From contig JAICGJ010000036.1 in the NCBI GenBank assembly GCA_025923195.1, forward strand, positions 1 through 37,878: DNA of 37,878 bases. Reading direction: 5' to 3'. The stretch's first letter is position 1; the number at the start of each line of letters is the position of its first letter. This document shows positions 15,419 to 18,602 of this stretch, piece by piece. The stretch is from Chryseolinea sp. Lineage in GTDB: Bacteria > Bacteroidota > Bacteroidia > Cytophagales > Cyclobacteriaceae. The notes under the pieces were generated by a model, which saw nothing but the letters and a program-made list of their open reading frames with translations, was not told where the DNA came from and searched no databases. A program made the position numbers and the translations under genes.

Positions 15419-16399
15419 ATGAAACACATAAGTATTTTAGTCCCAAATGAGGCTGTTCTGGCAAGTATCGACGATCCTCGTTATATGTTTACGGCTGCAA
15501 ATGAATTTTTGGAAGCTGCAGGAAAGCCCCCATTGTTTCAAGTTAAGCTGGTCGGATTGTCGAAAGAAGTAAAGTTGCATAAAGGGTCTTTTACGGTCCA
15601 CACCGACCATTTAATATCAGAGGTAAAAAAGACGGATCTCATTTTCGTTCCCGCGGTGATTGGCGACATCCCGTCTGCGCTGGAGCTAAACAAGGATTTT
15701 GTGCCCTGGTTAATAAAGCAGTATCGCCAGGGTGCAGAATTGGCGAGCTTGTGTATAGGTGCATTTCTACTAGCATCCACGGGGTTATTGAATGGTAAGA
15801 AGTGCTCGACGCATTGGAGATCGGCGAATCTTTTCAGGAGCATGTTTCCGGAAGTCAATCTGGTGGACGACAGAATTATTACCGAAGAACAAGGCCTTTA
15901 CTCAAGCGGAGGGGCGAACTCATACTGGAATTTGCTTCTGTACCTTCTCGAAAAATACACCGATCGTGAGATTGCAATTGTTGCATCGAAGGTATTTGCT
16001 GTGGAGATTGATCGGAAGAACCAGTCGGCATTCATAATGTTCAATGGCCAAAAGACACATGAAGATGAGCCCGTAAAAAAGGCGCAGGAATTTATCGAGA
16101 ATAATATTTCGGATCGGATTTCTGTTGAGGAACTGGCCTTGAAATTCGCTATTGGAAAGAGAAATTTTGAGCGCCGTTTTAAAAAGGCTACTAACAATAC
16201 CCCTGTGGAATATATGCAGCGCGTAAAAATTGAGGCAGCTAAGAAGTGTCTCGAAACCAGCAGAAAAAATGTTAACGAGGTAATGTATGATGTCGGCTAC
16301 ACAGATACGAAGGCATTTCGAACAGTATTCAAAAAAATTACGGGCCTATCCCCTATCGACTACAGAAATAAGTACAACAAGAAGTTGGCAGTGGCATAA
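15419..16399 (+). CDS. GlxA-like AraC-family regulator with DJ-1/PfpI domain, 326 aa
   Basis: Residues 1 to about 195 are a DJ-1/PfpI (class I glutamine amidotransferase-like) domain, with the nucleophile-elbow Cys at 112 (ASLCIGAF) and a His at 132 (STHWRS). Residues about 215-320 are an AraC HTH pair: ISVEELALKFAIGKRNFERR as the first helix-turn-helix, and NEVMYDVGYTDTKAFRTVFK as the second, closing with LSPIDYRNKY. Such GlxA-like proteins are one-component regulators of transport or catabolic genes, but the ligand here is unknown. The gene has its own promoter and converges with the monooxygenase gene, with 12 bases between them. Confidence 0.88.
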   Translation: MKHISILVPNEAVLASIDDPRYMFTAANEFLEAAGKPPLFQVKLVGLSKEVKLHKGSFTVHTDHLISEVKKTDLIFVPAVIGDIPSALELNKDFVPWLIKQYRQGAELASLCIGAFLLASTGLLNGKKCSTHWRSANLFRSMFPEVNLVDDRIITEEQGLYSSGGANSYWNLLLYLLEKYTDREIAIVASKVFAVEIDRKNQSAFIMFNGQKTHEDEPVKKAQEFIENNISDRISVEELALKFAIGKRNFERRFKKATNNTPVEYMQRVKIEAAKKCLETSRKNVNEVMYDVGYTDTKAFRTVFKKITGLSPIDYRNKYNKKLAVA

Positions 16400-16411
16400 T
16401 GGAGATTAATA

Positions 16412-17506
16412 TCAATGGGTCTGCAGGCGCCCGAAGCGAAAAAGACTGTGCTGACCTGCGGTATGAAAATTTCGCCAGACGCGATTAATCTCGTTTCTGG
16501 TATCAGCAGCCTCCAATCCACAGAAAGGATAAAGCTCGTTGATAATCTGCCTGCAGCTATTTGCCAGGTTGTGGCTAGCAAGACTTAGCTGTTCCAGCAT
16601 ATAGTTTGAGATAGCTGAGCGAGACGCTAGTGTATGCCAGACCAAGTCCGCCTGCCCGTAAAACTGGTACCGTGACAGATCCAGAGATGTGCGAGAATCA
16701 AGAATTTTTTTTATGATCATTTTGTGTTCCTTCTTTGGAACGATTTCCTCACAGAGATCAACAAACCTGCAAGTCATGCCAGACAGGTTCACCGCCAAGG
16801 TAGTTTCAGCAAGTTGTAAGAAGGGAAACTGAAAAACAGGATCACCTATCCATGCCTTTGATGGATCTATGATGAAAGCCCTATTCGATGGGATTGTCAT
16901 ATTTGTTACCTCAAATGAATGGCTGGCGGTCGCGATCATTCCCATAGAGCTCCAGGTAGAATGAATCTTAACCTCGTCCCTCTTCAAGACGAATGATTTT
17001 ACCAAACGACTACCGTCGTTGTTATATAATTGCGTTCCATTTTCTTTTACAAAGCAGTTGACCGTAAAAAAAGAAGCCAACGTCGCACCCGTTGCAAATC
17101 GCCAATAGCCATTGATTTCATATCCCGCATCCGTCTGGTTACTAATGCCAGTCACGGACCCACTGCCTGCAAAACAAATCTCGTCGGATGCAAATAGTTC
17201 GTGAGCCAGACCGGGATCAAGAAATCCGACGAACCATGCAGCGCCACTGCAGAGTGTCACAACCCAAGCGCTACTGCCATCTGTCCAACTTAGGCCCTCC
17301 TCTATCCTCAGAATCTCCGTGATGGGTAGCCCGAGCCCTCCAAATGATTTAGGCACATAGAGGTTAAACCAGTTCTGTGATTTTATGATAGCAAGTTGCT
17401 TATCATGTAGCTTCCTTAGCTGCTCTGCTTCATAACCAGCGTCTCGTATTTCGCTGGCCAGGGAAGCCGATATAAATTCACGAGGATGGTCGACGATTAC
17501 TTTCAA
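16412..17506 (-). CDS. Acyl-CoA-dehydrogenase-fold flavin monooxygenase, TPP-riboswitch operon
   Basis: A 364-residue protein with the acyl-CoA dehydrogenase fold: N-terminal helical domain (LYVPKSFGGLGLPITEILRI), middle beta domain (GYWRFATGATLASFF, MGMIATASHSFEV) and C-terminal helical domain. The C-terminus has R-x-W-R-N (342-346) and His353. These correspond to the R-x-W-R-D...H signature of two-component flavin monooxygenases such as HsaA and DszC; the catalytic Glu of true dehydrogenases is not evident. It probably uses reduced flavin and O2 on an unknown substrate and needs a reductase not encoded here. Translation starts at a TTG that overlaps the transporter stop (TTGA), with no ATG nearby, so the two are coupled. 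The upstream riboswitch implies control by thiamine pyrophosphate. The link to thiamine chemistry is inference. Confidence 0.82.
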   Translation of the reverse strand: MKVIVDHPREFISASLASEIRDAGYEAEQLRKLHDKQLAIIKSQNWFNLYVPKSFGGLGLPITEILRIEEGLSWTDGSSAWVVTLCSGAAWFVGFLDPGLAHELFASDEICFAGSGSVTGISNQTDAGYEINGYWRFATGATLASFFTVNCFVKENGTQLYNNDGSRLVKSFVLKRDEVKIHSTWSSMGMIATASHSFEVTNMTIPSNRAFIIDPSKAWIGDPVFQFPFLQLAETTLAVNLSGMTCRFVDLCEEIVPKKEHKMIIKKILDSRTSLDLSRYQFYGQADLVWHTLASRSAISNYMLEQLSLASHNLANSCRQIINELYPFCGLEAADTRNEINRVWRNFHTAGQHSLFRFGRLQTH

Positions 17507-18138
17507 ACCGTAACTGGATTGTCGTTCAATAAATTCTTTCTGGCAATCTTCAACCAGTCAAAATACCCTATACACGCCACTACGAATAAGAAGATAGTCA
17601 ATAGTGCAAGCAACGGCAACGCCTTGAAAAACAATAGTGGAATAGCAAATGCATTCGATATGTTTAGTAGCAACCAGTTCTCAATCTTTCTTCTGGCAAG
17701 GAGCCACATCCCTGCCCAACCCGTCGCACTTACCCATGCATCCCATGCTGGTACCTCTGAATCAGTCAGGGAAGAGAGAAATAAGAACAGAATTAGAAAT
17801 CCGCCAAACACGATGCTCAAAGTAATGATCCACTCCGTGCGTGACGAAAAAGATACCCTTACAGGCTTCTGGTCTTTCTTTCTTGACCAATACCACCACC
17901 CGTATACACTCATCACCAAATAATAACCATACAACAGACATTCTGCATAAAGGCCGACGTTGAACAAACTGTATATCGCGAGTACCGTTGCAGCTATACC
18001 AGTTGGATACAAATAAATACTATTTGCCCGTGCCAGCAAAACCTCAGAAACGCCAAGCACCAAGACTGCAACCTGGATGCCGTCAATGTGCAAAAGCTCC
18101 TGCCTAAAAATTTCAAGCCATTCACTGAAATTGTGCAT
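17503..18138 (-). CDS. pnuT: PnuC-family vitamin transporter, probable thiamine transporter PnuT
   Basis: About 211 residues with seven or eight membrane helices and the PnuC pattern (YGYYLVMSVYGWWYWSRKK, WLLLNISNAFAIPLLFFKA, ending IGYFDWLK). PnuC proteins carry nicotinamide riboside, while riboswitch-linked versions (PnuT) carry thiamine by facilitated diffusion. The TPP riboswitch 54 bases upstream is the reason for choosing PnuT. The frame can be extended to a TTG at 18144, but the ATG at 18138 is the natural start. It overlaps the following monooxygenase gene by four bases. No TonB-dependent receptor or thiamine pyrophosphokinase, the usual partners in Bacteroidota, is adjacent. Confidence 0.85.
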   Translation of the reverse strand: MHNFSEWLEIFRQELLHIDGIQVAVLVLGVSEVLLARANSIYLYPTGIAATVLAIYSLFNVGLYAECLLYGYYLVMSVYGWWYWSRKKDQKPVRVSFSSRTEWIITLSIVFGGFLILFLFLSSLTDSEVPAWDAWVSATGWAGMWLLARRKIENWLLLNISNAFAIPLLFFKALPLLALLTIFLFVVACIGYFDWLKIARKNLLNDNPVTV

Positions 18139-18192
18139 AGTCAATCGTTGTTACCAGCTCTCGACGTGCATGAGGATGCGCTTTAGATAGAC

Positions 18193-18318
18193 TCTCCCTA
18201 CGCTGGTATTATCCAGATCAGGTATATGGAAGACTTAAATACCTGTCTTCCATCGGGTATAATCTCAGCCTGTTTTTCAGGGATTGCGCTTAAAATGCAA
18301 TCCACTAGGCACCCCTTG
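18193..18318 (-). promoter_or_regulatory. TPP riboswitch (THI element)
   Basis: Read on the minus strand, the landmarks come in the right order. GGGGTGCC (18308-18315) comes first. An extra P3 hairpin follows, with 7-bp arms at 18297-18303 and 18281-18287. The pyrimidine-sensing CTGAGA (18263-18268) and ACCCG (18254-18258) come next, and the highly conserved ACCTGATCTGGATAATACCA with GCGTAGGGA closes it (18193-18223). This matches the thi-box consensus almost perfectly. The 54 bases between it and the pnuT ATG show no clear terminator with a T-run, so control may be translational. A TACATTTA (18330-18337, minus) is one mismatch from a -7 element and ideally placed just upstream. Confidence 0.95.
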
Positions 18319-18602
18319 AGCAAGTTTTGTAAATGTACACCATTTTAGTGTCACTTACAGCTGCACAACTTAAATTACTGCCGAAGGGTTCATAGATGCC
18401 CACAAATTTCTGTCTGGTCATAAGGAGAAACCACCGTTAAAAAATATACCCAGCCCGAGCGCCGGCGTTAATTCTGCAAGAACAAATTTAGAACTCAGTT
18501 CGCAATAGGAACTATTAAGGAGCTCTCTGTCGGCCGCCTGCCAGTGGTTTACATAGCAATCTAATTTTTACCCGCCAGTAGTCGGACACGGTCTTCGGTC
18601 TA
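18319..18602. other. Intergenic region upstream of the TPP riboswitch
   Basis: It separates the riboswitch leader from the end of the HhH-protein gene. Apart from the weak -7 element at 18330-18337 (minus) nothing was recognised. Confidence 0.4.

Follow-up and report, generated by a model that had tools for sequence, protein, structure and literature searches.

The window, the whole 37,878-nucleotide stretch of Chryseolinea sp. DNA analyzed here, carries a minus-strand operon in which a TPP riboswitch aptamer (THI element; 18179..18326) is followed, after 40 bases, by a gene for a pnuT-like inner-membrane transporter (17503..18138) and then by a gene for a flavin monooxygenase of the acyl-CoA-dehydrogenase fold (16412..17506). 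The oxygenase gene begins with a TTG codon that overlaps the pnuT stop (TTGA), as the preliminary description of this DNA had stated. For the transporter, the ATG at 18138 was picked from the equivalent start in the relative at locus L021; the list of open reading frames gives a TTG at 18144 (17503-18144). An AraC/DJ-1-type regulator gene (15419-16399) is convergent to the operon, and upstream lie genes for an RNA-polymerase-alpha-C-terminal-domain-like protein, a DinB-like protein and a CRP-like regulator. Outside the operon, no thiamine-related gene was found among the window neighbors scanned, nor a flavin reductase among the neighboring proteins scanned.

The aptamer matched RF00059 over the whole model (positions 1-105 at 18326..18179, minus strand) with 45.5 bits (E = 1.2e-7; E = 2.6e-7 in a whole-genome search), a value below the Rfam gathering score of 54.3, at which no match was obtained. 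Alignment to the model revealed the conserved core in place and long insertions in both side loops. The initial characterization of the riboswitch as nearly perfect thus holds for the core but not for the whole aptamer, and the span first given for the operon (16412-18318) leaves out 8 bases of it. The folded leader of the window had a z-score of -1.62, and no expression platform emerged from it. Two further TPP elements occur in the same genome, one of them ahead of a TonB receptor gene.

Domain analysis placed the transporter in PF04973 (E = 9.3e-45), the family that also holds the PnuC nicotinamide riboside transporter, and it is 73% identical to the PnuT of L021. In a phylogenetic tree of 45 PF04973 proteins, a branch (100/99) separated 27 oxygenase-linked copies (chosen from 77, with the fusion protein of L099 left out) from 15 NadR-linked PnuC proteins, each adjoining nadR in the panel genomes. 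Three proteins (L164, L166, and L171) belonged to neither group, L166 being placed among the oxygenase-linked copies. The window's protein is 21.5-35% identical to the NadR-linked copies. A riboswitch core lies near 3 of these 15 copies (L162, L167, and L175). It follows the nadR-type gene and, in the case of G118 (L139), precedes a receptor gene. The tree rules out a PnuC engaged in nicotinamide riboside uptake and bears out the earlier reading of a PnuT-like member of the PnuC family. As a PF04973 protein behind a TPP riboswitch and apart from NadR-linked PnuC, the transporter is supported as PnuT-type, with thiamine as its predicted cargo.

The second gene encodes a protein with a PF08028 match (E = 2.2e-10), which we take to belong to the group D flavin monooxygenases. 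Profile searches retrieved Rv3094c (2.5e-40) and HsaA (3.8e-35). A structure model, computed with 79 relatives in the input, reached a pLDDT of 95.3, and Foldseek aligned it with Rv3094c (7f72; TM 0.88), HsaA (3afe; 0.87), XiaF (0.85) and p-hydroxyphenylacetate hydroxylase C2 (HPAH-C2; 0.85-0.86). The top 20 matches were chains of these four proteins, of the Rhodococcus 3-HSA hydroxylase and of the putative hydroxylase 2or0; the first match described as an acyl-CoA dehydrogenase appeared at rank 22, which rules out a plain acyl-CoA dehydrogenase. R345 and H353 were invariant in all 80 aligned sequences, and H353 aligned with H351 of Rv3094c, the C-terminal catalytic histidine. Alignment A4 leaves out the fusion of L099. 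The enzyme class first proposed is therefore correct. The suggested comparison with HsaA confirmed a shared fold, yet the protein scored only 87.3 bits against the NCBIfam HsaA equivalog NF045629, whose cut-off is 450, so that identity with HsaA is rejected.

Rv3094c is a flavin monooxygenase that sulfoxygenates ethionamide, a foreign compound, and the accessible part of its report lists twelve flavin-contact residues, eight ethionamide-pocket residues and the gate residue Phe221 (PMC9904262). In a residue map made by hand from the profile alignment with Rv3094c, the listed flavin contacts correspond to W81, G114, S115, G116, F137, T139, W185, M190, S195, T349, H353, and S354 of the window's protein, 7 of the 12 being identical. 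Six of the eight listed pocket residues could be placed, Q353 just one position beyond the end of the alignment as printed (P158 and M375 lie where the alignment is gapped or missing), and all six differ: W115, P117, V202, F218, F352, and Q353 correspond to G116, V118, I213, L230, S354, and L355. The gate Phe221 corresponds to Ala233. Because the flavin site is largely kept and the pocket residues differ, the enzyme probably shares the flavin chemistry of Rv3094c and acts on a different substrate.

We scanned a genome collection of 84,980 species with a seven-row alignment and found 408 stretches encoding a relative of the oxygenase, from which the best 80, ranked by likeness to the window's protein, were taken. 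Among these best 80 of 408, a PnuT homologue (46-73% identical) lay directly upstream of the oxygenase gene in 73, a proportion that overstates the linkage in the wider family. A strict pattern located a TPP-riboswitch core upstream of PnuT on the same strand in 67 of the 80 and on the opposite strand in none (an earlier, first pattern had found 43/80); 43 of the 67 cores were no more than 400 bases away from PnuT, the other 24 at 2.5-2.7 kb. Four loci carried PnuT without the core (L045, L051, L053, and L110), two ended at contig borders that left no room for a riboswitch (L058 and L064), and the seven oxygenase genes without an adjacent PnuT also had no core. None of 20 mononucleotide shuffles of the 85 sequences produced a match to the pattern, which, together with the 67 related loci, rules out a chance riboswitch. 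These sequence patterns support the prediction that the operon is under TPP control.

An even class sample yielded the oxygenase in 31 of 396 genomes (E <= 1e-60). PnuT stood beside it in 20 of the 30 loci examined and not in the other 10; among matches at E <= 1e-140, 16 of 19 were PnuT-linked. Within flanks of roughly 1.5 kb, the riboswitch core was present in 12 of the 20 linked loci and not found in 8, and the pair spanned three families (f1, f36, and f40). A family sample of 148 genomes gave 17 matches in 16 genomes, 5 linked to both PnuT and riboswitch and 12 without an adjacent PnuT. A pair private to one genome, the outcome that the preliminary description had set against its own proposal, is ruled out by the 73/80 related loci and the 20/30 class-sample loci, and the riboswitch recurs with the pair. 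What does not stand is the portrayal of the oxygenase as an unusual TPP-controlled partner: it is common in this group of Bacteroidota.

Phylogenetic analysis of 95 oxygenases paired the window's protein with that of Chryseolinea sp. H1M3-3 (L042; 100/96). Loci labeled as PnuT-linked with riboswitch were clustered on the resulting tree, which needed 10 changes against a shuffled mean of 20, with L058 and L064 counted as riboswitch-linked despite their contig ends and several long branches of unsure place. The 18 PnuT-less rows were scattered, requiring 7 changes. In Mucilaginibacter sp. L294 (L099), PnuT and the oxygenase form one reading frame of 580 residues, a single case on one draft contig.

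At some loci the pair is part of a larger thiamine cluster. Mucilaginibacter and a few of its relatives have a TonB-dependent receptor gene between PnuT and the riboswitch, which is then about 2.5 kb upstream. Within flanks of up to 6 kb in the best 80 of 408 loci, a receptor resembling the TonB receptor of the window's own genome occurred in 25, a PF01663 phosphatase in 23 (3 on the other strand), a ThiE-like gene (PF02581) in 14 and a TPK-like gene in 7. Six loci (L056, L065, L066, L070, L102, and L104) unite riboswitch, TonB receptor, PnuT, oxygenase, phosphatase, ThiE-like and TPK-like genes. Separately, the ThiE-like protein at L132 (5907-6530) has NHYH at the place of the Asn-Asp metal motif that ThiE carries and may not be a normal TMP synthase.

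We then consider the thiamine pathways of the hosts. The panel comprised 20 genomes, 13 with the pair, and the class sample 20 with the pair; 3 are shared, giving 30 distinct hosts. A gene family is called absent here if its search of the draft genomes gave no match at E <= 0.001 or, where so stated, no match over cut-off. By this measure, ThiE (PF02581), ThiC (PF01964) and TenA (PF03070) were not found in the window's genome, a draft of 379 contigs rated 100% complete. Panel hosts with the pair had ThiC in 2/13, the ThiE family over cut-off in 7/13 and TenA in 0/13; class-sample hosts had ThiE in 13/20 and ThiC in 4/20. Across the 30 hosts, ThiC was found in 6 and ThiE in 19; the 11 without ThiE over cut-off include the window's own, and 3 of the 11 have weak matches.

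None of the 13 panel genomes carrying the pair, G000 (the window's own) among them, matched PF04263, the TPK family. The apparent lack of a TPK in G000 was resolved by a divergent homologue of the TPK-like query at C73:16649-17170. We call this family TPK-like because the query finds the same Flavobacterium gene (G157) as PF04263, the panel's one PF04263-positive gene; the query itself has no Pfam, NCBIfam or PDB match, and two members, the C73 protein among them, have no Pfam match. Such proteins occur in 11 of the 13 panel genomes with the pair (not G149 and G154) and in 16 of the whole panel of 20; another copy lies at L139 (4217-4864, minus strand).

With ThiE, ThiC and TenA not found, the window's genome cannot rebuild thiamine from its parts by any known route, and in the 11 hosts without ThiE over cut-off, which have no known enzyme to join pyrimidine and thiazole, only intact thiamine or one of its phosphates could be a product that supplies TPP. 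In the window's genome, therefore, either the oxygenase supplies TPP synthesis with intact thiamine or it has another function. Parts salvage by known enzymes is rejected for this genome only, and the release of a pyrimidine or thiazole, as originally envisaged, finds no footing there or in the 11 of 30 hosts without ThiE over cut-off. This is the chief argument against that chemistry. In G093 and G136, two genomes of the same genus that gave no oxygenase match, a riboswitch is followed by ThiM, ThiE and TenA genes, ThiD being confirmed in G136. Among the four Chryseolinea genomes (G093, G136, G000, and G015), TenA and ThiE occur only in those two.

Several other TPP-linked elements were observed. 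A TPP-aptamer match precedes an HSP20 gene in two Chryseolinea genomes, at L038 1501-1363 (C209 of the window's own genome; 47.3 bits) and at about L135 5364-5502 (G015; 48.1 bits), each followed, as judged by eye, by an apparent terminator hairpin and T run. In G136 (L138) the CTGAGA core of a similar element is altered, and an HSP20 gene was not seen there. It would be odd for a TPP switch to control a small heat-shock protein. A further thiamine-type operon encodes an AIRS-type protein, a ThiE-family protein and a Trm112-like protein in L130, L131, L025, and L026, where it is known to be preceded by a riboswitch, and also in L134. It includes a PF08241 methyltransferase in L130, L131, and L134, and no methyltransferase frame is listed in L025 and L026; ThiC is lacking in all four tested genomes with this operon. 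At about 7.2-8.6 kb in L025 and L026, a 32-34%-identical oxygenase gene without PnuT is convergent to a riboswitch-preceded operon, with a MATE-family gene (L025) or a look-alike (L026) between them.

The layout of the operon, its recurrence and the class of the enzyme are established by these results. We strongly infer a role of the operon in thiamine acquisition, which is almost certain, and read it as a TPP-repressed scavenging operon. When cellular TPP is low, the leader would permit joint production of PnuT and the monooxygenase, a direction assumed from known bacterial TPP riboswitches. The TonB receptor, whose gene lies at another place in the genome and has its own TPP riboswitch in front, would bring thiamine compounds across the outer membrane, PnuT would carry them inward, and the divergent thiamine pyrophosphokinase would trap thiamine as TPP. 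The monooxygenase, with reduced flavin and O2, might then convert an otherwise unusable imported modified thiamine to thiamine. Provided that TPP represses the operon, the enzyme is produced during B1 shortage, which makes destruction of thiamine unlikely. The most economical reading, and our best guess, is that an imported derivative is repaired. As a general proposal, that an O2-dependent flavin enzyme restores usable B1 from modified or damaged thiamine imported by PnuT, in many Bacteroidota mostly unable to make B1, is tentative and falls somewhat short of an even chance; that the monooxygenase turns the imported compound back to thiamine by oxidative repair is a more doubtful possibility, its putative substrate and reaction being a guess. 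One candidate substrate is 2-(1-hydroxyethyl)thiamine, which TPP enzymes form as a side product; its oxidation could give an acetyl adduct that falls off. Several findings count against repair: ThiE is present in 13/20 class-sample hosts, so work on thiamine parts is possible there; the oxygenase occurs without an adjacent PnuT in 7/80, 10/30, and 12/17 loci of the three samples; 8 of the 20 linked class-sample loci show no riboswitch core within their flanks of roughly 1.5 kb; and the neighbors scanned include no flavin reductase. In the accessible part of PMC5613172, the riboswitch-preceded pnuT-tnr3 and receptor genes of Bacteroides thetaiotaomicron show no significant change with thiamine in RNA-seq. 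Repression of such operons is thus not to be taken for granted.

Other roles for the oxygenase were weighed against repair. Thiamine antagonists include 2'-methoxythiamine from bacimethrin, pyrithiamine and oxythiamine; derepressed uptake would import these as well, and the enzyme might destroy or convert them. A guard enzyme of this kind would fit the overlap with the importer gene and the hosts in which ThiC and ThiE were not found, and the nearest solved relative, Rv3094c, does oxidize a foreign compound, ethionamide, according to the accessible part of PMC9904262. The spread over three class-sample families, however, points to nutrition more than to sporadic defense, and we regard anti-vitamin defense as unlikely. 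The salvage of parts suggested by the preliminary description, taken here to mean that a pyrimidine or thiazole is released or mended by the oxygenase and that ThiD, ThiM and ThiE rebuild thiamine phosphate from it, draws on the ThiE-like genes near 14/80 loci and the ThiE family over cut-off in 19/30 pair genomes. It sits poorly with the 11/30 genomes, the window's included, that have none over cut-off (3 of the 11 with weak matches) and with TenA in 0/13 panel hosts, and appears rather improbable.

The enzyme might also act off thiamine altogether. B12 riboswitches control cofactor-free isoenzymes, and by this parallel the oxygenase could provide a TPP-sparing bypass or another activity useful at TPP shortage, placed in the operon for regulation only. 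PnuT-less oxygenases at several places in the tree (7 changes for 18 rows) are consistent with such independence. Its position directly after pnuT, where Bacteroides has tnr3 in the accessible part of PMC5613172, speaks against it, and the one PnuT-oxygenase fusion (L099) points to a shared substrate; we give this explanation only a small chance.

Thiamine auxotrophy shapes microbial communities, and a B1-sensing switch over an importer and a flavin enzyme in many Bacteroidota points to an undescribed vitamin-scavenging step. A TPP-controlled oxygenase in hosts without a detected part-joining enzyme suggests that an unconsidered form of B1 may be a real nutrient. The salvage enzymes known to us (TenA, YlmB, and ThiM) act on broken thiamine parts; repair, if true, would be an oxygenase step of thiamine salvage. 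In searches of 5.39 million open papers, with subscription journals mostly outside this scope, no title or abstract retrieved connects an oxygenase of this kind to PnuT or to a TPP riboswitch, and the pair is not named in the accessible parts of PMC5613172, PMC9870897, PMC2771747, PMC6281302, PMC6593275, and PMC2848557.

Compared with Rv3094c (7f70 and 7f72), the window's oxygenase shares the fold, the 7 of 12 listed flavin contacts and the catalytic histidine, and differs in its 20% overall identity and in the six placed pocket residues. Rv3094c, as far as the accessible part of its report extends, is co-transcribed with a reductase gene, whereas the window's oxygenase has no adjacent reductase and is instead preceded by a TPP riboswitch. 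For the operon as a whole, the nearest known system is the OMthi-pnuT-tnr3 thiamine uptake of Bacteroides. Its tnr3, the gene after pnuT, encodes the thiamine pyrophosphokinase, and the hosts of the oxygenase pair presumably live aerobically. Thiamine transport by the PnuT of B. thetaiotaomicron is reported in work cited by PMC5613172, according to its accessible part. In that same part, the Bacteroides system likewise combines a TPP riboswitch, a TonB receptor and PnuT in one or in split operons, and most hosts tested here differ from it in having no ThiC (found in 6/30). Where tnr3 follows pnuT in Bacteroides, the window and its relatives carry the flavin monooxygenase.
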